The notes under the pieces are model-generated. The model made no database searches and was not told where the DNA came from. It was given only the letters and a program-made list of their open reading frames with translations. 64,000 bases of DNA from Rubrivirga marina (GTDB lineage Bacteria; Bacteroidota; Rhodothermia; Rhodothermales; Rubricoccaceae): NCBI RefSeq assembly GCF_002283365.1, contig NZ_MQWD01000001.1:3996711-4060710 (forward strand), read 5' to 3'. This document shows, piece by piece, positions 410 through 13,778 of the stretch. A program made the translations under genes and the position numbers. Numbering within the stretch: the first letter of the stretch is position 1; the number at the start of each line of letters is the position of its first letter.

Positions 410-1822
410 CTAGTTCGTCCGGCACGCCAGCACGATGTCGTTGTGCTTCCGGAGGTGCGTGTTCGTAGCCGGGTCGGGCAGGCAGAGGAGTTGCTCGTTC
501 GACTCGTTGCCCGGCGGCCGGTGGAGCACGGGGTTCTTCCAGTTTTGGCGGCACTGGCAGGCGAAGTCGTTCGTCGGGTCACTCGGCGGCGGCTCGGTCG
601 GCGGTGGCTCGGTCGGCGTCGGCTGGGTAGGCGGCGGCTCGGTCGGCGGCGGCTCCGTGGGCGGGGGCGTCGTCGGCTCGTCGTCGGGGTCGTCGTCGGT
701 GGGCGGCGGCGTGACCGGCTGGTCGGGCACGTCGTCGTGCTCCTCCCCGCAGTCGTCCTGCGTGTTGTAGTACTGGTTGAGCTTGCCCTGGTAGTTCGCG
801 TCATACGGGCTGATCACGCCGACCTCGATGACTTGATCGGAGAAGTCAGGGCGGTTGCCGTAATCACGGAGGACGCGGTAGCCTTTGCCGTCGACGTCGG
901 GCCAACCGAGGCCGTCGTAGCCGTACATCTTGAGCGCCTGGAGGCTCTGCACCGGGTTGTCGGAGCCGGGCCGGTCCCACGACGTGTTGTGGATGTCCTC
1001 CCAGCCGACGCGCCAGACGTTCCGCTTGTTCGGACGCTTCTCGACGAAGGCCCAGATGTCCTCGTGGGCCTGGTCGAGGTTGCCCGCCTCGACGTCGAGC
1101 GCGCGGTGGATGTAGTCGAAGCCGGTCAGGCCGTAGGAATACTCTCGGGCGTACTCCCGGAGCTCGCACTCCGACATGCGCGACGACGGGCGCATGGAGC
1201 AGTTCTGGTCGACGGCGATGTAGAAGTTGAGCTGGGTCCCGGGCTCGGCCCACACAAGACGGGCCGGACGGGCCGTCCGACGGTCCCGGTTGTCGGGCGC
1301 GAAGAGCATGATGGGCTCGGGCACGTCGCCGTCCTCCATGTCCATGGTGTACATCTCAAGGAACACGGCCGAGCAGTAGCCCGCCATCGACTCGAGGAAC
1401 GAGACGTCGACGATCCCGCCGCGCTCGGCGATCATCACGTACACCCGGTACTCGTCGTGCATGGTGTACTCGGCGTCGCCGAATTTCCCAGTCGCCACGA
1501 TGCGGACGCTGTGCCCCGACGTCGGGTCGGCTCGGACCGTGTACTCGCCGCCGGCGAACCGGCCCGTCGAGTACGTCCCGCTCCGGCCGGCGTTGCCCGG
1601 GCCATTAAAGGCGTGAGCCCCGGCCAGGAGTTCGTCGCCATACGCCCGGAGCTCGCCCATGCCGACGTTGAACGCGGACGCGGCGATCTCGCGCGCGATG
1701 ACTTCTTCCTGGTACGCCCGCTGGTCCTTGGACGTCCGTTCTTCTGTGATCGTGGTGTTGTACAGTTGCTTGGTCAGCACGAGGCCGGAACCGAGCACCA
1801 GTACGAGAAGAGCCTTGCCCAT
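410..1822 (-). CDS. large pilin-like protein with proline-rich stalk
   Basis: This 470-residue protein has a very short polar N-terminus (MGK), one hydrophobic helix (about residues 4-17) and a long extracytoplasmic part, the architecture of a pilin or minor pilin. Near residues 370-420 there is a low-complexity stretch of PPPTE/PPPTQ units that looks like a flexible stalk, followed by a Cys-containing tail (CQC, later single Cys residues). It is the last gene of a minus-strand run with two other single-helix proteins, a PilB-type ATPase and a PilC-type protein, so a role as a tip or minor subunit of a surface filament is inferred from context. I recognise no named domain in the globular part. 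The ATG follows a 34-bp gap after the preceding gene. Confidence 0.75.
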   Translation of the reverse strand: MGKALLVLVLGSGLVLTKQLYNTTITEERTSKDQRAYQEEVIAREIAASAFNVGMGELRAYGDELLAGAHAFNGPGNAGRSGTYSTGRFAGGEYTVRADPTSGHSVRIVATGKFGDAEYTMHDEYRVYVMIAERGGIVDVSFLESMAGYCSAVFLEMYTMDMEDGDVPEPIMLFAPDNRDRRTARPARLVWAEPGTQLNFYIAVDQNCSMRPSSRMSECELREYAREYSYGLTGFDYIHRALDVEAGNLDQAHEDIWAFVEKRPNKRNVWRVGWEDIHNTSWDRPGSDNPVQSLQALKMYGYDGLGWPDVDGKGYRVLRDYGNRPDFSDQVIEVGVISPYDANYQGKLNQYYNTQDDCGEEHDDVPDQPVTPPPTDDDPDDEPTTPPPTEPPPTEPPPTQPTPTEPPPTEPPPSDPTNDFACQCRQNWKNPVLHRPPGNESNEQLLCLPDPATNTHLRKHNDIVLACRTN

Positions 1823-1856
1823 GGTGGGGATGGTCTATGAGGAAAGGGAAGCGCGC

Positions 1857-2564
1857 TCAGTTCTCGAGCGATGGCGGCGGCGTCCAGTACGGACGCACTT
1901 TGAGGGTTTTCACCCAGTACAGTTCGCGCAGGTAGTTGTCCGGCTTCAGCACGTACTCGGGGACGACCCCGAACCGGACCCGGATGTAGTCGACCTTGTA
2001 GACGTCGATGTCGTTGGCCGGGTCGTCGTCGATCCGGGGGGTCTCTCCCATCCGATCCAGCAGGTCGATCTGGAAGAAGGAGAGGGTCCCGATGCTCCAC
2101 GTGTTGTGGACCCAGTCGTCGTCGGCGATGCTCGCCAGCGGGGGCGGGACGTCGTGCGCCGGGAAGTCCACGACGACGGAGTCGCGGTGGACCTGGTACA
2201 TCTGGTACGTCGTGTCGCGGAACGTGGCGAACTCCGTCTCGACCAACCGGTACCGCTTAAAGATTCGGGACTGGTCGCCGTTCGTCGCGGTGGTGTCGCT
2301 GTAGAACACCCACTCGGTGGCGTTGCCCGTCTCCGGGTCGACCGTCGGCTCCTCGAAGCGGTACATGTTGGTACCGAAGTTGGCCCCGATGTCCATGATA
2401 TCGCGCTCGACCCACTGGCCGAACACGAGCGTCTTGGCCTTGACCGAGTGCGAGGCGACCTGCTCGATGCTCGCGTGCTGAGACCGGACCTGCGTGACCT
2501 GGAGGCCCAGCAGGAGGACGCATGCGACGACGATCGCGACGAGGTTGTCGAGGATGAACTGCAT
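1857..2564 (-). CDS. pilin-like single-helix protein
   Basis: This 235-residue protein starts MQFILDNLVAIVVACVLLLG, so one hydrophobic helix begins almost at the first residue, followed by a hydrophilic extracytoplasmic domain. There is no conventional signal peptide. It sits 34 bp upstream of the 470-residue pilin-like gene and 27 bp downstream of a third such gene on the same strand, indicating one transcription unit. By position and architecture it resembles minor pseudopilins that prime filament assembly, but I see no prepilin-peptidase site of the G/FxxxE kind and no recognisable family motif. Confidence 0.7.
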   Translation of the reverse strand: MQFILDNLVAIVVACVLLLGLQVTQVRSQHASIEQVASHSVKAKTLVFGQWVERDIMDIGANFGTNMYRFEEPTVDPETGNATEWVFYSDTTATNGDQSRIFKRYRLVETEFATFRDTTYQMYQVHRDSVVVDFPAHDVPPPLASIADDDWVHNTWSIGTLSFFQIDLLDRMGETPRIDDDPANDIDVYKVDYIRVRFGVVPEYVLKPDNYLRELYWVKTLKVRPYWTPPPSLEN

Positions 2565-2591
2565 GGGGGTGGGGGCTCGGGGAGCGAGCGC

Positions 2592-3281
2592 CTAGGGGTT
2601 CGGCGTCTGGTCGTGCGGCCCGCCGCCGCCACCGCCGCCGCCACCCTCTCCGTAGGTCGGGTCGTAGTACGGCGAGTTCTCGTAGTCCATCTCGGCCTTG
2701 ATCGGGTCGTAGGACACGACGCGGGTGGCCCGGTAGACGCCGTTCTCGTCGCCCGCGAACGGCGAGCGGATGTCGATGAGGATCCGCTTGTGGCGGGTCG
2801 GGGCAGACGCCTCGGCCATGCTCTCGGGGTTGTCGACGTAGTAGACCTGCATCCGGACCTCGAACGGGAGCTTCCGGTCGTGCGAGAGGGCGATCTCGAC
2901 GTCCCGCCATCCGTCATCGTCGATGTCGTTCGGGTCCCAGGCCACGTCGTCGACGTCGTCGCAGTCGGGGGTATTCGCCGGCTTGAGCAAGTCGCACCCG
3001 TCGGTCCCGCGGTCCGTCGCGCCGAACGTCGTCCCCTCCGTGAACTCGTCGGGGTCCTCCGGCACGTTCCCGTTCTCGTCGCTGATGGCCGACGGCGTTG
3101 ACTCCTCGTCGAACGACCGGCCGTCGACGAACGCGAGGACCTCCGAGGCGAGGCCCGCGGCCGCCAGTTCGACCTCGTCCGACACGAGGTTGTTGTGCGA
3201 CCGGAGCGTGAGCCGCTGCTGGTTGAACGTCAGGAACGACGCGAGGACGAGCGCGAGGAGGGCGAGGAGGGTTTGTGGCAT
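2592..3281 (-). CDS. pilin-like single-helix protein with polyglycine tail
   Basis: This 229-residue protein has an N-terminal hydrophobic helix (about residues 4-18), an acidic Asp-rich middle region (around residues 70-125, possibly metal-binding by composition) and a C-terminal run of about nine glycines before the end. It is the first of three consecutive single-helix proteins on the minus strand downstream of the PilB-like ATPase gene, and is inferred to be a minor subunit of the same filament. No specific family is recognised. The Asp-rich segment has DxDDD-like spacing reminiscent of calcium-binding loops, but this is only suggestive. Confidence 0.7.
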   Translation of the reverse strand: MPQTLLALLALVLASFLTFNQQRLTLRSHNNLVSDEVELAAAGLASEVLAFVDGRSFDEESTPSAISDENGNVPEDPDEFTEGTTFGATDRGTDGCDLLKPANTPDCDDVDDVAWDPNDIDDDGWRDVEIALSHDRKLPFEVRMQVYYVDNPESMAEASAPTRHKRILIDIRSPFAGDENGVYRATRVVSYDPIKAEMDYENSPYYDPTYGEGGGGGGGGGPHDQTPNP

Positions 3282-3330
3282 GAGCCTGCCGAGTGAGCCG
3301 GCACGAAGGTGACTCGGGGTGTCGGCAGGG

Positions 3331-3359
3331 CGCTAACCCTTTTGAACCTAACGGGTCAA
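3331..3359 (-). promoter_or_regulatory. possible promoter for the three pilin-like genes
   Basis: On the minus strand TTGACC is followed 17 bases later by TTAGCG, about 50 bases upstream of the ATG at 3281, inside a 160-bp gap that is locally AT-richer than its surroundings. This is a weak match to a housekeeping promoter; it is offered only because the gap separates the ATPase gene from the pilin-like trio. Confidence 0.25.
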
Positions 3360-3441
3360 TTTGACGCGCCCGGGTTCCATCTGAGGGCCGGGCAGCGTCT
3401 CCCGTTCCTCAGGGAACGCTCCACGGGGCCGAACCGGCGGG

Positions 3442-5406
3442 CTAGTGCTCGCCCGCCGTGACCCGCATCATCTCCTCCAGCGAGACCTCCCCGCGGAGCA
3501 CGAGGACGCGAGCCGACGCCTGGAGCGTGAGCATCCCCTCGCTCTCCCCGATCCGCCGGATCTCCTCCTCGTTGATCTCGCCGCCCGCCGACACGATCGA
3601 GGCCTGGATGGCCGGCGAGAAGTACAGGGCCTCGGCGCACGCGCGGCGGCCCTTGTAGCCCTTCCCCTTGCACGTCGAGCAGGACGAGCCCGTGTTGGCC
3701 TCGTAGATCTGAGCCTCGGCGATCTCCTCGGGCGTGAACCCGAGCTCGGCCATCATGAGTTCGTCGCGCTCGGCCATCGGCTTGCGGCAGTCCGGGCAGA
3801 GCGTCCGGATGAGCCGCTGGGCCACGACGAGGTTGATGGCGTAGGCGATGAGGAACGGCTCGAGGCCCATCTTGTAGAGCCGCGACACGGCGCTCGGCGC
3901 GTCGTTCGTGTGGAGCGTCGAGAACGTGAGGTGGCCCGTGTTGGCCAGCTTGATCGCGAGCTCGGCCGTGTCCTTATCGCGCATCTCGCCGACCATGACC
4001 ACGTCGGGGTCGTGCCGGAGGATCGCGCGGAGCGCCTGCTCCAGCGACAGCTTGTGGCTCAGCTTGATCTGGCGGACGCCCGGGATGATGTACTCGACCG
4101 GGTCCTCGACCGTGAGCACGTTGACCTCCGGCGTCACGACGTTCGAGAGCGCGGCGACGAGCGTCGTCGACTTGCCCGAGCCCGTCGGGCCGGTCAGGAT
4201 GACCATCCCGTGCGGCCTCCGGATGGCCTGGTTGAACTTCTCCAGCGCGCCCTCCAGCAGCCCCAGCTTGCCTAGGTCCGTGATGACCTTCCGGTCGTCG
4301 AGGATCCGGATGACGATGGACTCGGCGCGGACCTCCGGGTTCGCGTTGGCGATCGGGAGGATCGAGACGCGGTAGCGGATGAGGGTCCCGTCGATCTTGC
4401 GCTGGATGAACCCGTCCTGGGCCATGTCGCGCTCGAACCGGTCGACGTTGAGTGAGGCGTCCTTGAACACGGCTAGGAGCGCCTCGGGGTGCCCGCGCGT
4501 CTCGGTGTGCCAGTGCGCCAGGCGGCCGTCGACGCGGAAGTGGACCTCCGTCTGGCGCTTCGCGTTCGGCCAGATGTGGATGTCCGAGGCCCCCATCCGG
4601 ACGCCCTCGACCAGGATGGCCTCCGTCAGGTTGAGGAGCGCCGACTGCGAGATCTCGGCCTCTAGGGCGTCCTCGTCGACGAGCCCCTTCTCCCCGCTCT
4701 CGAACGACACGCCGAAGTCGACGTCGGGCGCGTCGGACTCGGACAGCCGCTCGAGGTACTCGTTCTTGCGCGGGAACGCCTCGACCAGCACGCGGTCGAC
4801 GACGTCGCCGGGCGCGTAGCACAGCTCGAACCGCTCGAGCTCGAGGCTGTTGATGACCTTCTGCAGCTCCGGCCGCATCGGGTCCTCCGTGATGAAGACG
4901 AGCTTGAGGATCCCCGACGGCTGGTCCTGCGCGTAGGCGTACGGGACCGCCTTGAGCTCGATGAGCTTGTCGCCGAGCCCCTCGTCGAACGACTCGATGA
5001 CGGTCTTGGCGAACTCGGCCTCGGGCTCGCGGTCCTTGACCGGCGCCAGCCGGAAGGCGTACGTCGCCGCCGCCTGCTCGAACACGTGGTTCCGGTCGAC
5101 CCCCTTGACCGTCGTGAGGCTCCGCCAGAGCGGCGTCCGCCCGCCGGCCTGCTTCCGCTCGGCCTCGGCGGCCGTGACCTGCTCGGCCGTGACCAGCCCG
5201 CGCCGGAGCAACGCCTGCACGACGCGGTCCTGGACGTGGGAGTAGGCCTGGTCCTGGGCGACCGGAGCGGCCGGCCCACCGACCGTCCGGGCGACCGCTG
5301 CGTGGGGCGAGCCCGCGGCGGGGGGGGCACCGGCCACGCGGGCCGCGTCCGGGCGGGGCCCGGGGACGACGGCCGAGGGGCGCGGGGGAGGAGAGAGCGG
5401 TGGCAT
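3442..5406 (-). CDS. PilB/GspE-type filament assembly ATPase
   Basis: Cytoplasmic hexameric ATPase that powers extension of type IV pili or type II pseudopili. In this 654-residue protein a Pro/Ala-rich tail (residues 1-50) precedes an N-terminal MshEN-like region (about 55-210). The ATPase core has Walker A GPTGSGKST (406-414), a Walker B-like MVGEMRD (about 471-477) and the His box around TGHLTFSTLHT (491-500). The CPDC and CSTC pairs (Cys 537/540 and 576/579) form the zinc-binding motif typical of assembly rather than retraction ATPases. It lies 51 bp downstream of the platform gene on the same strand. The family is certain; whether the machine is a pilus or a secretion system is not decided by this gene alone. 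Confidence 0.93.
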   Translation of the reverse strand: MPPLSPPPRPSAVVPGPRPDAARVAGAPPAAGSPHAAVARTVGGPAAPVAQDQAYSHVQDRVVQALLRRGLVTAEQVTAAEAERKQAGGRTPLWRSLTTVKGVDRNHVFEQAAATYAFRLAPVKDREPEAEFAKTVIESFDEGLGDKLIELKAVPYAYAQDQPSGILKLVFITEDPMRPELQKVINSLELERFELCYAPGDVVDRVLVEAFPRKNEYLERLSESDAPDVDFGVSFESGEKGLVDEDALEAEISQSALLNLTEAILVEGVRMGASDIHIWPNAKRQTEVHFRVDGRLAHWHTETRGHPEALLAVFKDASLNVDRFERDMAQDGFIQRKIDGTLIRYRVSILPIANANPEVRAESIVIRILDDRKVITDLGKLGLLEGALEKFNQAIRRPHGMVILTGPTGSGKSTTLVAALSNVVTPEVNVLTVEDPVEYIIPGVRQIKLSHKLSLEQALRAILRHDPDVVMVGEMRDKDTAELAIKLANTGHLTFSTLHTNDAPSAVSRLYKMGLEPFLIAYAINLVVAQRLIRTLCPDCRKPMAERDELMMAELGFTPEEIAEAQIYEANTGSSCSTCKGKGYKGRRACAEALYFSPAIQASIVSAGGEINEEEIRRIGESEGMLTLQASARVLVLRGEVSLEEMMRVTAGEH

Positions 5407-5457
5407 GGGGAGCGTGAGTCGGTCCGGGGGACGGATGGTGGATGGGCGGCTCTGGGG

Positions 5458-6816
5458 CTAGCCGCCCATGCCCATCATCTCGTTCGAGGACGGGCGGATG
5501 AGGGCGGTCTCGGCCGAGAGGACCGTCAGGAACCCGACCATGAGCCCGATGAACAGGCCCACGAACGTCTGGATCGTCTCGACGGCGGTCTTCAGCTTGA
5601 GCGACGTCTCGCGCTCGTAGTAGTCGGCCATCTGCTGGGCGCTCTTCCGGACGGCGCCCGTCTCGGCGCCCGTCTTGAAGCGCGACAGCGTCATCGGCGT
5701 GAACACGCCGGCGGCCTCCATCGACTCGACGAGGCCGGCGCCCTTGCCCATCATCGCCGGGATCGTGATCGTCTTGATCCGGTGCTCCATGTACGGGTTG
5801 CCGGCCGCCTCGGCGGCCACGCGGATGACCTCGAGGTTCTCGCCCGAGCCCGAGTACAGGATGGCGAAGACCCGGCAGAACACCTCGATGTTCAGCTTGT
5901 GGAGGAGCTGCCCGATCACGGGGATCTTGATCATGTACTTCGCGATGAGGTACTGGCCCTTCGGCGTCCGCGCCCACGCCACGAAGGCCACGATGGCGAC
6001 GAGCGTGATCACGCCCATGAGCCCCATCCACTTGTCGAGAAACGCGCTCATTGCCAGCGAGAACGTCGTCAGCGGCGGGAGCTCGATGCCCTCGAACGAG
6101 GCGAAGAGCCCGGCCGTCTCCGGGACGATGTACCAGACGTACCAGATGAACACGCCGATCGTGGCGAGGATGGTCACGGCCGGCATGATGAGCGCGCTCT
6201 TGACGCTCTTCTTGAACTCGTCGCGGCGCTCGAGGAAGCGGGCCGTGGCCTCGTAGATCTCGGCCATGTTGCCCGACTGGCTCGCCACGCCGAGCATGTA
6301 CGCCGTGAACTTGCCCAGGCTGTCCTGGTGTTTCATGAAGGCCTGCTTGGCCTCCATCCCGCCCTTCAGGTCGGAGGCGATGTCGCGGAGGATCTGCTTC
6401 AGCGACTTCGAGGAGATGTCCGTCATGAGGAGGTTCATGACCTCCGTGAACGCCATCTTCTCCATGAGCAGGTTCGCCGCGAGGCGGACGAACATGATCA
6501 CGTCGCCCGTCGGCGGCTTCGGGCTGTAGTTGATGAGGTTCTTCTGGATCGAGACGACCTCCATCCCCATCCGCTCGAGCGCGCTCCGGATCTCGTCCTC
6601 GGCGTACGCCTTCTGCTCGCCCGTCACGACCTTCCCCGACGGGTGCTTGATCTTGTACTTGAAGATCATCCGCTGCTCGAGGTCCCGGAGCGTAAACGTG
6701 TGGCGCTCCGAGAGCGCCTTGACCTTCTTCTGGGCCGCCTTCTTGTTCGGGGCGTAGACCGTCCCCTGGACGGTCTGGCCACCTTGGGCGACGCCGTTGA
6801 AACGGAACTCGGGCAT
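5458..6816 (-). CDS. PilC/GspF-type inner-membrane platform protein
   Basis: Polytopic inner-membrane protein on which type IV filaments are built, partner of the PilB/GspE ATPase encoded next downstream. The 452-residue protein carries two T2SSF-type domains with hydrophobic segments around residues 215-240, 270-290 and at the C-terminus (about 415-440), the usual length and layout. The N-terminal region contains two successive similar beta-type repeats (F-R-F-N-G with GTVYAPNKKAAQ, then F-K-Y-K-I with GEQKAYAEDEI) before the first T2SSF domain. I chose the ATG opening MPEFRF because the upstream in-frame extension is low-complexity and overlaps a transposase remnant on the other strand. Confidence 0.92.
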   Translation of the reverse strand: MPEFRFNGVAQGGQTVQGTVYAPNKKAAQKKVKALSERHTFTLRDLEQRMIFKYKIKHPSGKVVTGEQKAYAEDEIRSALERMGMEVVSIQKNLINYSPKPPTGDVIMFVRLAANLLMEKMAFTEVMNLLMTDISSKSLKQILRDIASDLKGGMEAKQAFMKHQDSLGKFTAYMLGVASQSGNMAEIYEATARFLERRDEFKKSVKSALIMPAVTILATIGVFIWYVWYIVPETAGLFASFEGIELPPLTTFSLAMSAFLDKWMGLMGVITLVAIVAFVAWARTPKGQYLIAKYMIKIPVIGQLLHKLNIEVFCRVFAILYSGSGENLEVIRVAAEAAGNPYMEHRIKTITIPAMMGKGAGLVESMEAAGVFTPMTLSRFKTGAETGAVRKSAQQMADYYERETSLKLKTAVETIQTFVGLFIGLMVGFLTVLSAETALIRPSSNEMMGMGG

Positions 6817-7038
6817 GAGGGCTCGGAGGGGGGCCGGTGGTATCGACGGACGACCGCGCCGGCTTAACGGCCCGATGCGGGTCGTCTGGAGGACATCCCC
6901 GGCCGGTGAGCCGTCCCGCTCTGAGACGCGGCATCGGTCCCCTCCCCTACTCGTCCGACTCCGGCCCGGGCGCCCCCGAGGCGGGCCAGGGTAGACCGCA
7001 CGCGCTCGTGGGCCTAGAGCCGGCCGAGACGTCTCGCC

Positions 7039-7125
7039 ATGCGCCACCGCCGTCGCTCCGTCCGCCTCGCGCGCCACGACTACGCCCACCCGGGCGCTTG
7101 CTTCGTGACGATCTGCACCCACGGT
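7039..7125 (+). pseudogene. truncated REP-associated (RAYT, Y1) transposase start
   Basis: The first 29 codons read RRSVRL...HDYAHPGACFVTICTHG. This is the characteristic N-terminus of REP-associated tyrosine transposases (IS200/IS605-like Y1 family, usually R-x-S-[IL]-R-L...DY...PGAYFVTICT). The similarity ends abruptly after THG. The HUH metal-binding motif and catalytic tyrosine expected further on are absent from all frames, so this is a 5' fragment. Full-length RAYTs are about 150-250 residues and mobilise palindromic REP sequences; palindromes of that kind are scattered through this window, one of them 100 bp downstream. Confidence 0.65.
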
Positions 7126-7226
7126 GGCGCCACCTCTCCCGCCGCGGCGGATGCTTCGCCCCTACCGGGCGCCGCGCGATCGCCGCGCGGCCGTCGGGCA
7201 CCGGGGTCATCCGCGACCGGGCCGGT

Positions 7227-7252
7227 CCGCCTCGGACGCCCGCCGAGGCGGG
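7227..7252. repeat. dispersed GC palindrome, copy near transposase remnant
   Basis: Arms CCGCCTCGG and CCGAGGCGG are separated by seven bases. It belongs to the same family as the copies at 19523, 21187, 23191, 30497, 36952, 40048, 43241, 48078, 53455, 59880, 61798 and 62339. It lies 13 bp from the stop of the small pilin-like gene that ends at 7266 and could also act as its transcript end. Confidence 0.7.
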
Positions 7253-7265
7253 CCGGGCCAGGCGG

Positions 7266-7697
7266 CTACGCGTCGGTGCCGGGCTCGTCGTCCAAGCCGA
7301 TCTCGCCGTCGAACGAGATGTCGCTGCCGACCACGTCGTACTGGTCGATGAACATGCGGACGGCGACGCCCTCGTAGCGGTCACTCACGCCGGTAACCTC
7401 GAGCCGTGTCGGCGTGGCCTCGGTGATCCGGAAGCGCCCGCGGACTGTGGTCGAGTCGAGCCCGAGCGTCTGTAGCCCGCCCTCCGCCAGCCGTTCGTAC
7501 GACATGTTGCCGCCGTTGTACGGGTCCTGTGTGATCTTCCACTGGACGGCCGACCCGGTGATGGCAAGGCCCCGGTCGAGGAGCGCGTCCGCCTCGTCCT
7601 GCCGGAAGCCTTTGTCGAGCATCGGGAAGGCCGCGGAGATGGAGAGGGCGACGAGGACGACGCCAATGACGAGGAGGAGGAGCTGTTGCTGTCCCAT
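7266..7697 (-). CDS. small pilin-like protein (paralogue of the next gene)
   Basis: This 143-residue protein opens MGQQQLLLLVIGVVLVAL, a two-residue leader followed directly by a hydrophobic helix, and continues as a small extracytoplasmic domain. The same opening, MGQQQLLLLV, starts the neighbouring gene at 8260, so the two are tandem paralogues. Both end the way pilins do, with a short beta-rich region and no further membrane segment. A filament subunit role is inferred from architecture, duplication and the adjacent ATPase and platform genes. The glutamate at position +5 of mature type IV pilins is missing. The ATG at 7697 is chosen because upstream sequence has no similarity to the paralogue. 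Confidence 0.78.
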   Translation of the reverse strand: MGQQQLLLLVIGVVLVALSISAAFPMLDKGFRQDEADALLDRGLAITGSAVQWKITQDPYNGGNMSYERLAEGGLQTLGLDSTTVRGRFRITEATPTRLEVTGVSDRYEGVAVRMFIDQYDVVGSDISFDGEIGLDDEPGTDA

Positions 7698-7813
7698 GGG
7701 AGTGGGGTCGGGAGAATCGAACGAGACGACGACCTCAGAACCAGTTCGCCCCCGCCAGAACGAGTCTGACGGGGGCGAAGCGAGCCTGGACCCGGGAGGG
7801 CTCAGGGGCTGGA

Positions 7814-8260
7814 CTACGCCTCGTTGGCGCAGGTGTCCGAGTTGGTGACCGTGGTCGTGATGTCGCTCGGGCCGGTGCCATCGACGACAGCCTGGACTGT
7901 GTTCTTGGTCTCGCTGTTGCAACCGATGATCGTAACCGTAGCGGCATCGCCGGTCCCAGTCACCGTCAAGCCGTAGGAGCCGTTGAGGTTACCGTACGCG
8001 CCGGTGGCCGCGTCATTCTGGCCAAGCGTGTAGCCGAGGCTCGTAAGCGTGACGCCCTCGAAGGAGCCATTGCCACCGCCGAACGCCGTCGGCTTGAGGT
8101 TCCAGGCCTGCGCGTCGGAAGCGATGCGGATGACGTCGTTCGTGATCGCGTCGGAGTTGGCCTTCTTCTGGTTCTCACCGAAGGCCTGGATGCCCACGAC
8201 GACGGCGAGGCCGACGATGACGATGCCGAGGACGAGGAGGAGGAGCTGCTGCTGTCCCAT
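7814..8260 (-). CDS. small pilin-like protein, probable major subunit
   Basis: This 148-residue protein opens MGQQQLLLLVLGIVIVGL, then FGENQKKANSDAITNDVIRIA, which matches the way major pilins pass from the hydrophobic alpha-1 helix into an amphipathic helix. The C-terminal half is Gly/Thr/Asn-rich with a few Cys (one in GCNSET, one near the C-terminus) that could make the C-terminal disulfide loop seen in many pilins. It is the first gene of the minus-strand filament cluster and codes for the shorter-side-chain composition expected of an abundant subunit. No classical G|FTLxE prepilin site is present; cleavage after Gly-2 is possible but inferred. Confidence 0.78.
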   Translation of the reverse strand: MGQQQLLLLVLGIVIVGLAVVVGIQAFGENQKKANSDAITNDVIRIASDAQAWNLKPTAFGGGNGSFEGVTLTSLGYTLGQNDAATGAYGNLNGSYGLTVTGTGDAATVTIIGCNSETKNTVQAVVDGTGPSDITTTVTNSDTCANEA

Positions 8261-10088: not shown

Positions 10089-10634
10089 TCAGACCTCGCC
10101 GCCGACGCCTCGGTACGTCTGCTGGTAGTAGAGGAGCGGCTCGCGGCCGGCGCCCTCGATCACGTGGGTGACCTCGCCGACATAGACGGTATGGTCGCCA
10201 GCCTCGAACCGCGCGTGGGGCTGGCAGAGGAGGACGCCGAGTGAGCCGCGCAGAAGCGGCGGCCCCGCCCCGCGGAGGTGTCCGAACGGGGCCAGCTGGT
10301 CCTCCCCGTCGAGGTCGGGCACGGCGAAGTGGGCCGCGACGTCGGCCTGGTCGGCGGCGAGGAGGTGGACGGCCCAGTCCTCGGCCGCGGCGAGCGCGAC
10401 GTGGAGTTGCGTCCCGTGCGTGACGTTGATCGAGACGAGCGGCGGGTCGAGCGAGACGCTCGTGAACGAGCCGATCGTCGCCCCGCGGGGGCCGTCGTCG
10501 GTCTCCGTCGTCACGACGACGACCGGCGAGGGGAGGTCGCGGAGCGCGTGCCGGAGCGCCTCGCCCGTCGCGGGCACGGTCTCCGGGCACTCGGACGCGC
10601 GGTCGGCGGGGGGCGGGGTCGTCGCGGTGGCCAT
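10089..10634 (-). CDS. flavin reductase-like FMN-binding protein
   Basis: A 181-residue protein of the flavin reductase-like (FMN-binding split barrel) family. The typical parts are visible: ALRDLPSPVVVVTT near the start, GATIGSFTSVSLDPPLVSINV (about residues 50-70, the family hallmark), and GDHTVYVGEVTHV followed by PLLYYQQTYR at the C-terminus. Such enzymes reduce FMN/FAD with NAD(P)H, often for a partner monooxygenase, but no monooxygenase is nearby. It lies 95 bp after dnaJ on the same strand and may be read with the heat-shock genes. The ATG opening MATATT is the first good start; upstream sequence is low-complexity. Confidence 0.86.
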   Translation of the reverse strand: MATATTPPPADRASECPETVPATGEALRHALRDLPSPVVVVTTETDDGPRGATIGSFTSVSLDPPLVSINVTHGTQLHVALAAAEDWAVHLLAADQADVAAHFAVPDLDGEDQLAPFGHLRGAGPPLLRGSLGVLLCQPHARFEAGDHTVYVGEVTHVIEGAGREPLLYYQQTYRGVGGEV

Positions 10635-10729
10635 GTCGGTGGGACGACCGACCGCGGGCGGGGGTCCCACCCTCCTCCCCTCGACGGCTCCCTGAGCGGA
10701 GCCGATGGGCCGAGGCGGCCGGAGGGACG

Positions 10730-11905
10730 CTAGCCCGCAAAGGCGTCCTTGACCCGACCGAAAAAGCCCTTCTTGTCGCGCGTGCCCGGCGCCGGCTTGA
10801 GGTCGGGCTCGAGGCGGAGCTGCTCGAGCGTCTCGCGGAGCGGGCCGGAGACCTGCTCCGGCGTCCAGACGTGGACGCGGACCAGTTGGTCGCCGCGGCG
10901 GCCGCCGCCGACCTCGGGGAGCCCGCGGCCCCGCATCCGCAGGACGCGGCCCGACTGGATGCCGGGGTCGATCTGGAGCTTGGCGCGGCCCCGGAGCGTC
11001 GGGACCGTGGCCTCCGTGCCGAGCGCGGCGTCGGGGAACGAGAGGTAGAGGTCGTAGACCACGTCGAGCCCCTCGCGCTGGAAGTGCTCGTGCGGCTGCT
11101 CGTCGATCTCGACGCGGAGCGCGCCGGCCGCGCCGCCGCGGACGCCCGCGTTGCCGGCGCCCCGGATCTGGAGGTAGTGCCCGCCGGAGACGCCGGCCGG
11201 CACCTCGACGGTCACGCTCTCCTCGCCCTTGACGCGGCCCTCGCCCTCGCAGACGTGGCACTTCTCGTCGATCGTCCGCCCCTCGCCCTCGCACGTCGGG
11301 CACGGCTGGACGTTGACGAACTGGCCGAAGAACGACGTCGACACCTGGCGGACCTCGCCGGAGCCCTGGCACGTCGGGCACGTCGAGTACCCGCTCTGCT
11401 TGTCCTCGGCGCCGGTCCCGTCGCAGTGGTCGCACCCGACGAACTTCCGGAGCTTGAGCTGCCGCTCGACGCCCTCAGCGACCTCCTCCAGCGTCAGCGC
11501 GAGGCGGACGCGGAGGTCGGTGCCGGGGCGGCCCTGGCCGCGGCGCTGGCCCGGCCGCCGGCCGAACACGTCCTCGAACCGCCCCTCCCCACCGAAGATG
11601 TCGGAGAAGGCCGAGAAGATGTCCGAGATGTCGGTGAACCCGGTGGGGCCCTGGCCGCCCGCGCCCCCGTTCAGGCCGGCCCGGCCGAACCGGTCGTAGC
11701 GCGCGCGCTTGTCGGGGTTCGAGAGGATCTCGTAGGCCTCGGCGGCCTCCTTGAAGTTGGCCTCGGCCTCGGCGTCGCCGGGGTTCCGGTCTGGGTGGTA
11801 CTGGAGCGCCTTCTTCCGGTAGGCCTTCTTGATCTCGTCGGCCGTCGCCGTGCGGGCGACGCCCAGGACGTCGTAGAAGTCTCGCTCGGCGGTGTTGGCG
11901 GGCAT
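10730..11905 (-). CDS. dnaJ: chaperone DnaJ
   Basis: Hsp40 co-chaperone that delivers substrates to DnaK and stimulates its ATPase. At 391 residues it is a full-length type I DnaJ: J-domain (about residues 7-72) with HPD in YHPDRNPGD, a Gly/Phe-rich region with [12 protein letters not shown], and a zinc-binding domain with four CxxCxGxG repeats ([32 protein letters not shown]). Two beta-barrel substrate-binding domains and a dimerisation tail follow. It is third in the order hrcA-grpE-dnaJ on the minus strand, 50 bp after grpE. dnaK is not in this window. Confidence 0.97.
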
Positions 11906-11955
11906 GGACGGATCGGGGGGACGAAACGGAACGCTACGAGGCGGACACGCGGCGG

Positions 11956-12522
11956 TTACTCCGCGACGATGACGCGCGCGTGACGGAGGACGCGGTCGCC
12001 GAGGCGGTAGCCGGGCTGGATCTCGGCCAAGACCGTGCCGGACTCGGTGCCCTCCGGCGCCGGCTGCTGCATCATCGCCTCGTGCTCGTGCTCGTCGAAC
12101 GGCTTGCCGACCGCCTCGATGGGCGTCACGCCGACCCGCTGGAGGGCGTCGGAGAACTTCTGGAACACGAGCTCGATGCCCTGGCTGAGGGCGTCGAACG
12201 ACGGCGACCCGGAGTCCTGCTGCGCCGCGCGCTGGGCCGCGTCGAGCGAGCGCGTGAGGTCGTCGTAGACGTCGAGAATGGGAATCAGGACGGCCCGGCG
12301 GCCCTGTCGGACGGCCTCCTCGCGGTCGGTGAGGGACCGGCGGCGGTAGTTGTCGTACTCGGCCGTAAGACGGAGGAGCCGGTCCTGGAGGCGGTCGATC
12401 TCTTCGGCGGCACCATCGGAAGCCTCGGGCGCATCGCCGGCGTCGGCGACGTGCGCGTCCGGCTCGGCGACGGCCTCGTCGTCGAAGTGGGCGTCGGAGG
12501 GGGAGAAATCGCGGTCGGCCAT
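11956..12522 (-). CDS. grpE: nucleotide exchange factor GrpE
   Basis: GrpE releases ADP from DnaK. The 188-residue protein has an acidic, disordered N-terminus (about 45 residues), a long coiled-coil ([27 protein letters not shown]) and the C-terminal beta-wing with [24 protein letters not shown] and [23 protein letters not shown], the GrpE signature. I use the ATG opening MADRDF; an in-frame ATG 33 bp upstream adds no conserved residues. It lies between hrcA and dnaJ. I looked for a CIRCE operator (TTAGCACTC-N9-GAGTGCTAA) in the gaps and did not find one. Confidence 0.96.
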
Positions 12523-12637
12523 GCGGGGGGGAGAGTGGACCGTCGCCGGCAACATCGGAAGGTCCGGCGGCGGGGTCGAACGAAACAGGTGGGAAATGGG
12601 GGCGAACGCCGGAAGGACGGACCCGCCCGGCGGCGCG

Positions 12638-13702
12638 CTAGTCCGGGGGCGAGTCGCCGAGGAGCCGGGCCACGTACTCGACGAGGCCGACGGCTCTGGA
12701 GTAGTCCATCCGCGTCGGGCCGAGCACGGCCACGGCGCCGACGCTCTCGCCGACGCGGTACGGTGCCGTGACGACGGAGTACGCCGGGCCGTCCTCGACG
12801 TCGGGACGCCCCCGCTCGACCTCGCGGCCGATCAGGACGACGGCCCGGTCCGCCTCGGTGGGGTCGACGAGGCGCGGGCGCTCGAGGAGGTGGACCACGA
12901 CGTCCTCGCTCTCGACGAGCTCGATCACGTCGCGGACCCACTCGGGGCGCGCGAACTCGGGCTGGGCCACGAGGTGCTGCGCCCCACCGATGGCCGCCCG
13001 CCGCGCCGGCGTGGACTCGCGAAAGAGCGTCTTCCCATCCCGGAGGACGACGCGAACGATCCCCGTCCGGTCCTCGTCTTCGAGGTCGCGGACGCGCTCG
13101 CGGCCGGTCCGCCGGATCTCCTCCAGCGAGTGGCCCGCCAGGCGCTCGTTGAGCCGCCGGACGATGCCGTCGACCGCCTCGGGGCGGACGTCGACGTCGA
13201 CCTCGGCGGCGACGGTCCGGGCGAGCCCGCCGCGGAGGGCGAGGACGAACAGGACGCGCGCGCCGCCGAGGGGCACGACCTCGATCCGCTCCAGCACGCC
13301 CGTCGACAGGCTCGGGGTGAGGACGACGCCGAGGAGCTGGCTCAGGCGCCCGAGCACGCGGCTCGTCTCTCGGGCCACGGCCTCGAGGTCGCCGAGGCGG
13401 CGGCGGACGCTCTCGCGCAGGAGGCCCGCCTCGCGCTCCGAGAGCCCCGTCACGTCCATCAACCCGTCGACGTAGAGCCGGTAGCCGAGCTCGGTCGGGA
13501 CGCGACCGGCCGACGTGTGGGGGTGGCCGAGGTAGCCGGCCTCCTCGAGGTCGCGCATCGTGGCGCGGACCGACGCGCTCGACAGTTCGACCTCGTCGGC
13601 CAGCGTCTTCGACCCGACCGGGGAGGCCGTGTCGATAAAGTGCTGGACGACGCGCCGGAGCACGTCTTCCTGGCGGGTGGTGAGCGGGGCGGGGTCGGTC
13701 AT
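12638..13702 (-). CDS. hrcA: heat-inducible transcription repressor HrcA
   Basis: HrcA represses heat-shock operons by binding CIRCE elements. The 354-residue protein begins with a winged-helix DNA-binding domain (TTRQEDVLRRVVQHFIDTASPVGSKTL, then SSASVRATMRDLEEAGYLGHPHTSAGRVPT, residues about 5-70), followed by the GAF-like HrcA domain ending in VVTAPYRVGESVGAVAVLGPTRMDYSRAVGLVEYVA. It is first in hrcA-grpE-dnaJ, with a 115-bp gap before grpE. No CIRCE-like inverted repeat is visible upstream, so its operator must be divergent or located at another locus such as groESL. Confidence 0.96.
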   Translation of the reverse strand: MTDPAPLTTRQEDVLRRVVQHFIDTASPVGSKTLADEVELSSASVRATMRDLEEAGYLGHPHTSAGRVPTELGYRLYVDGLMDVTGLSEREAGLLRESVRRRLGDLEAVARETSRVLGRLSQLLGVVLTPSLSTGVLERIEVVPLGGARVLFVLALRGGLARTVAAEVDVDVRPEAVDGIVRRLNERLAGHSLEEIRRTGRERVRDLEDEDRTGIVRVVLRDGKTLFRESTPARRAAIGGAQHLVAQPEFARPEWVRDVIELVESEDVVVHLLERPRLVDPTEADRAVVLIGREVERGRPDVEDGPAYSVVTAPYRVGESVGAVAVLGPTRMDYSRAVGLVEYVARLLGDSPPD

Positions 13703-13778
13703 GGCGGCAGAGAGAACGAATCTAGCCGCTCGCTCGTCCCCTGGAGGTCCGGCCTCCCCGGACGTTTTCACCGACGCC

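Follow-up and report, generated by a model that had tools for sequence, protein, structure and literature searches.

Can a type IV filament be built from subunits that never pass through a prepilin peptidase? The question is raised by a locus of Rubrivirga marina, on the minus strand between positions 410 and 8260 of a 64,000-nucleotide stretch of DNA (the window; G000:C1:3996711-4060710), where genes for two paralogous pilin-like proteins beginning MGQQQ (P1, P2) are followed in order by genes for a PilC/T2SSF platform protein, a PilB/T2SSE ATPase and three larger proteins (mA, mB, mC; Table 1). Reviews regard two features, the class III signal peptide and a prepilin peptidase, as defining and conserved in type IV filaments (PMC4471445, PMC10191384). 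Based on the evidence collected here, the locus is most probably understood as part of a pilus of the type IVa (T4aP) kind, whose pilins are made in mature form and which is independent of the prepilin peptidase PilD. We further consider it probable that it represents a widespread, undescribed class of type IV pilus in the Fibrobacteres-Chlorobi-Bacteroidetes (FCB) group which dispenses with both leader cleavage and N-methylation by PilD, and in which PilD is not obligate.

The first-pass annotation of the window, made from the letters alone, had given the seven-gene order on one strand with a tetra-Cys PilB and had regarded the ATPase and the platform protein as certain; the open reading frames and the PF00437 and PF00482 matches bear this out, the ATPase showing the tetra-Cys motif CPDC...CSTC and an intact Asp box, VEDPVE. 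It had also described a reduced system without PilD, PilM-P, secretin or PilT. None of these is encoded inside the 64 kb, yet the apparent loss of PilMNOP, secretin and PilT arises because the window edge cuts the operon. The window starts about 130 bp past the beginning of the next operon gene, and at or beyond its left edge lie, on the same strand, genes for PilT-like, PilM-PilN-like, PilO-PilP-like and PilQ-like secretin proteins (L004:19785-13577). A reduced locus is thus rejected: what the window holds is the leading half of a T4aP-like operon that is itself complete, and across the genome PilD alone among the listed absences stands, as the sole pilus component really missing. The secretin scores best with the PilQ model, and better than with GspD, yet under the curated cut-off of the PilQ model; in the two fusion proteins, the PilM and PilP portions are assigned by position only. 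There is one secretin and one PilC in the whole genome and no further pilus ATPase. The gene order, for which a comparison had been proposed, recurs across the class and the arrangement is therefore not a matter of chance.

Position and modelled fold identify the small proteins as type IV pilins. The fold was assessed by VIA-align realignment of Foldseek candidates, performed on AlphaFold2 models of P1 and mB. The P1 model (predicted local distance difference test, pLDDT, 90.9) comprises a helix of residues 2-55 and a four-stranded sheet in lollipop form; its best structural match is the Thermus filament pilin PilA4 (Z 8.9, 118 residues), and type IV pilins make up eight of the nine best realigned rows. 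For the mB model (pLDDT 83), the top ten structural rows are GspJ, XcpW, EpsJ and TTHA1219 (Z 9.8-11.4), the next row, an unrelated one, scoring 4.5. The two folds lend support to the subunit role that had been proposed for the small proteins, and the idea that the filament is an undescribed variant is likewise strengthened. Given their operon place and N-terminal helix, mA and mC are candidate minor pilins: each of mA, mB and mC has a single N-terminal hydrophobic helix, their order fits GspI-J-K or PilV-W-X, and the place and N-terminus of mA as well as the place of mC are kept in relatives. P1 and P2 share the residues M1, G2, Q3, Q4, Q5, L6 and L8 that are invariant among 33 aligned pilins from several phyla, where position 5 is never acidic; in mB, Asp6 (position 5 after the Met) is kept in at least 90% of 20 homologues. 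None of the Pfam or NCBIfam pilin models comes above cut-off on the subunits, with the effect that this pilus escapes annotation and that pili are probably under-counted in these phyla. A profile built on the MGQQQ pilins has six matches in the genome, implying about four further paralogues outside the operon.

The same models indicate where the proteins begin. Residues 2..148 of the P1 model align to mature residues 1..123 of PilA4, model residue 2 coinciding with mature residue 1; this register and that of the mB Asp agree, which argues that the proteins start where a processed pilin starts. Judged from the reading frames, each of the five subunits starts at the mature pilin N-terminus or one residue ahead of the would-be +1. 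To detect a leader, ATG, GTG or TTG was sought between the pilin Met and the upstream in-frame stop. P1, mA, mB and mC have no such codon in the 29, 17, 9 and 4 codons back to the stop, respectively; for P2 a single TTG lies upstream, inside the P1 gene and within a 97-codon open stretch. Among 84 distinct MGQQ-type proteins, drawn from all loci gathered in Rhodothermota, Ignavibacteria, Kryptonia, Calditrichota and other phyla, 79 show no ATG, GTG or TTG before the stop, which is reached after a median of 5 codons. In conventional prepilins of this class, by contrast, a leader of 6 to 41 residues precedes the GFSLTELL-type motif. The class III signal PF07963 (N_methyl) has no match in the genome, and none of the five subunits carries the class III signal peptide of type IV filaments, an absence that had gone unnoticed in the first-pass annotation. 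There is no charge on residues 1-6, and the stretch that follows the helix averages slightly negative (mean charge -0.86), a pattern which fits an N-in, C-out orientation only weakly.

The absence of the peptidase parallels that of the leader. Peptidase_A24 (A24) has no match over cut-off in the whole genome; the best candidate (E 2.57) falls below it, is by eye a CPBP-like membrane protein and was discarded. Over a sample of 245 genomes of the class, A24 is found over cut-off in 18 and the PilC of this system in 163. Of the good genomes having this PilC, 103 of 116 lack A24, and the 13 good ones with both all show at least two PilC-type matches. Eight A24 loci were examined at the level of single genes. 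In seven, A24 adjoins conventional prepilins that belong to another system, either GF(S/T)LxEL-type or truncated (for example GFSLTELLIVLAIIG), and the eighth (L151) has it beside other conventional prepilins in a genome without this PilC. The conventional system beside A24 is, in some Rhodothermia, a separate second system. A sample of the phylum gives a consistent picture, with the MGQQQ pilin in 129 of 395 genomes, A24 absent from 114 of the 129 (including 12 single-contig genomes), and pilin and A24 unassociated (Fisher P 0.87). In 24 further genomes from several phyla, all seven with PF07963 over cut-off also have A24, and none of the 14 without A24 over cut-off has PF07963 over cut-off. 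Peptidase and leader occur together, and the MGQQQ pilus is tied to neither. Five genomes of the class with N_methyl and no A24 (G174, G095, G053, G158, G082) were set aside, the matches lying on small contigs with foreign-type pilins and probably reflecting contamination; G006 and G033 hold parts of a second system without A24. A single-contig genome, G166, contains two diverged leaderless pilus operons (L163, L164) and no A24 over cut-off.

The locus is not restricted to Rhodothermota, of which the first-pass annotation had suggested it could be a variant. The common order of MGQQQ pilins, PilC, PilB, usually three minor pilins, PilT, PilMN, PilOP and PilQ is found in Rhodothermales and other families of the same class, as well as in Ignavibacteria, Kryptonia, Calditrichota, KSB1, LCP-89 and Marinimicrobia, with minor-pilin content varying somewhat. 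In four Ignavibacteria loci (L075, L085, L087, L101), the three minor pilin genes are missing from the interval between PilB and PilT. Three loci of the same class (L152, L154, L156) have in that interval a protein of about 167 residues, by eye cyclic-nucleotide-binding-like, and loci of other phyla have response-regulator genes within the operon.

The PilT-like ATPase encoded past the edge is, from its sequence, a PilT family member with a putative role in pilus retraction. Walker A, the Walker B Glu and the His box are retained in it, as is one Glu of the Asp box. The Asp-box E-D pair (Glu159-Asp160 of Pseudomonas aeruginosa PilT) is altered in all 48 aligned PilT-like sequences, being replaced by AK, AS, GA and similar pairs, with a few retaining the D only; PilB keeps VEDP. 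A dead PilT that lost its catalytic glutamate together with the pair was considered and dropped: in the alignment to the P. aeruginosa PilT structure the equivalent of Glu163 is invariant in the relatives, and the Walker B Glu204 is retained as well. Inactivity is therefore not claimed.

In the mechanism we propose, the subunit would be translated already mature, and its hydrophobic helix would insert and anchor directly in the membrane. The initiator Met would probably be removed by the general methionine aminopeptidase where Gly follows, as it often does. The mature subunit would then enter assembly driven by PilB and PilC and exit through the secretin, with mA, mB and mC predicted at the tip and the GspJ/PilW-type mB forming part of it. 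A prepilin peptidase would be unneeded because the subunits are born mature. Since the genome has a ComEC homologue, the pilus could plausibly serve DNA uptake as well as adhesion. If true, the proposal breaks a rule thought universal for type IV filaments, and it would reveal the purpose of the leader, the way pilins orient in its absence, and whether cleavage serves as a control step or is historical. Nanoarchaeota are the noted case without a detectable prepilin peptidase (PMC4471445, PMC10191384), and a survey of the superfamily describes mannose-sensitive haemagglutinin (MSH) loci without a peptidase gene, in genomes encoding one elsewhere (PMC6668835). Nothing relevant on leaderless pilins, the MGQQQLLL string or pili without PilD was found in the open-licence papers searched.

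Regarding known systems, likeness to T4aP (PilA, PilBCT, PilMNOPQ) extends over PilB, PilC, the PilT family, the PilN and PilO homology, the PilQ-type secretin and the pilin fold of the major subunit. Unlike T4aP, the system has no class III signal peptide, no PilD and no Glu5 in its major pilin, its PilM-N and PilO-P are apparently fused, and the Asp box of its PilT is without the E-D pair. As both leader and peptidase were looked for and found lacking, we do not call it a plain T4aP member. Archaeal type IV pili are comparable in that their subunits are often without Glu5 (PMC4471445); archaeal pilins, however, have leaders and prepilin peptidases of their own, whereas the system described here uses bacterial machinery, including PilT and a secretin.

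The likeness to type II secretion systems (T2SS) deserves separate weight, for the leaderless subunits could instead form a pseudopilus in a T2SS-like secretion device and not a surface pilus, an alternative we regard as unlikely without thinking it far-fetched. Its appeal comes from mB, which models best on GspJ-type pseudopilins, and from a PilB that scores about equally with GspE; further likenesses to T2SS are the acidic position 5 of mB and the three consecutive minor subunits in the manner of GspI/J/K or XcpVWX. In addition, a Bacteroidetes T2SS, the closest system of that group to have been studied, is known in Cytophaga hutchinsonii, a member of the same broad bacterial group, with PilMNOP-like proteins and divergent pseudopilins (PMC5553014). 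That system, however, retains an A24 peptidase, CHU_3197 (PMC5553014), unlike the MGQQQ system. Against a secretion device, mB is matched just as well by TTHA1219, a type IV-like pilin; the secretin prefers PilQ to GspD; PilN and PilO homology is found; no GspC, GspL or GspM family was matched; and a PilT-family ATPase stands in the operon throughout.

Several observations weigh against pilins born mature as such. The filament is predicted here from genes and models. Its major pilin has neither Glu5 nor the usual leader to account for an N-in orientation. Genomes of Calditrichota, KSB1 and Marinimicrobia keep A24, usually with conventional prepilins, and the MGQQQ pilus may use PilD there. A non-homologous peptidase may also act, although the subunits offer it no leader to remove. 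Foldseek alone against the PDB gave no significant match for the P1 or the mB model, for which reason the evidence on fold comes from structural realignment of predicted models. Lastly, 28 of the 84 MGQQ-type pilins have an upstream near-cognate codon (CTG, ATT, ATC, ATA) or, in 5 cases, GTG, TTG or ATG. These codons, among them the TTG ahead of P2, together with an assembly that is 97% complete, could be taken to mean that leaders exist and were missed through an upstream or unusual start, that the prepilin peptidase is diverged or unassembled, and that the pilus is an ordinary T4aP. We judge this very improbable. The other 56 of the 84 pilins are without even a near-cognate codon between the Met and the stop, and whereas the few codons upstream vary, MGQQQ does not change across the aligned pilins; A24 is also absent from the 12 single-contig genomes, and the same search detects it in relatives with conventional prepilins. 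That the MGQQQ proteins are membrane-anchored accessory proteins sharing the operon, as the failure of pilin models and of Foldseek alone and the missing Glu5 might suggest, is scarcely credible beside the lollipop model of P1, the pilins among its best realigned structures, and the position of the MGQQQ genes at the expected place of the major pilin in operons with no other pilin-like gene of that size.

Table 1. Genes of the pilus operon, with positions in the window or, past its left edge, in locus L004
Feature	Position	Strand	Remarks
P1, major pilin candidate	7814..8260	-	148 aa; starts MGQQQLLLLVLG; leaderless; 2 Cys in C-terminal part; open reading frame
P2, second MGQQQ pilin paralogue	7266..7697	-	143 aa; 23% identity in alignment with P1
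PilC/GspF platform protein	about 5458..6816	-	PF00482 E 2.6e-26; start MPEFRFNGVAQ
PilB/GspE extension ATPase	3442..5406	-	PF00437 E 7e-96; TIGR02538 E 1.2e-112
mA, minor pilin candidate, PilV/GspI place	2592..3281	-	leaderless; starts MPQTLLALLALVL; function from position only
mB, GspJ/PilW-type minor pilin	1857..2564	-	leaderless; starts MQFILD; AlphaFold2 model and structural matches
mC, large minor pilin candidate, GspK/PilX place	410..1822	-	leaderless; starts MGKALLVLVLG; function from position only
PilT-family ATPase	L004:18424-19785	same strand	TIGR01420 323.5 bits (cut-off 319.1)
PilM+PilN-like fusion	L004:16109-18361	same strand	750 aa; family profile against Myxococcus PilN E 1.3e-11
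PilO+PilP-like fusion	L004:14998-16065	same strand	355 aa; family profile against PilO E 4.2e-5
Secretin	L004:13577-14932	same strand	PF00263 E 1.9e-28

The third PF00437 match in the genome is a VirB11-like gene on another contig, C5, where VirB4-like, VirB11-like and ParA-like genes (L006, G000:C5:92000-110000) suggest a conjugative element or plasmid. Within the window, hrcA-, grpE-, dnaJ- and flavin reductase-like genes (10089-13771) adjoin the pilus locus, a synteny also seen in L053, L054, L162 and L163.

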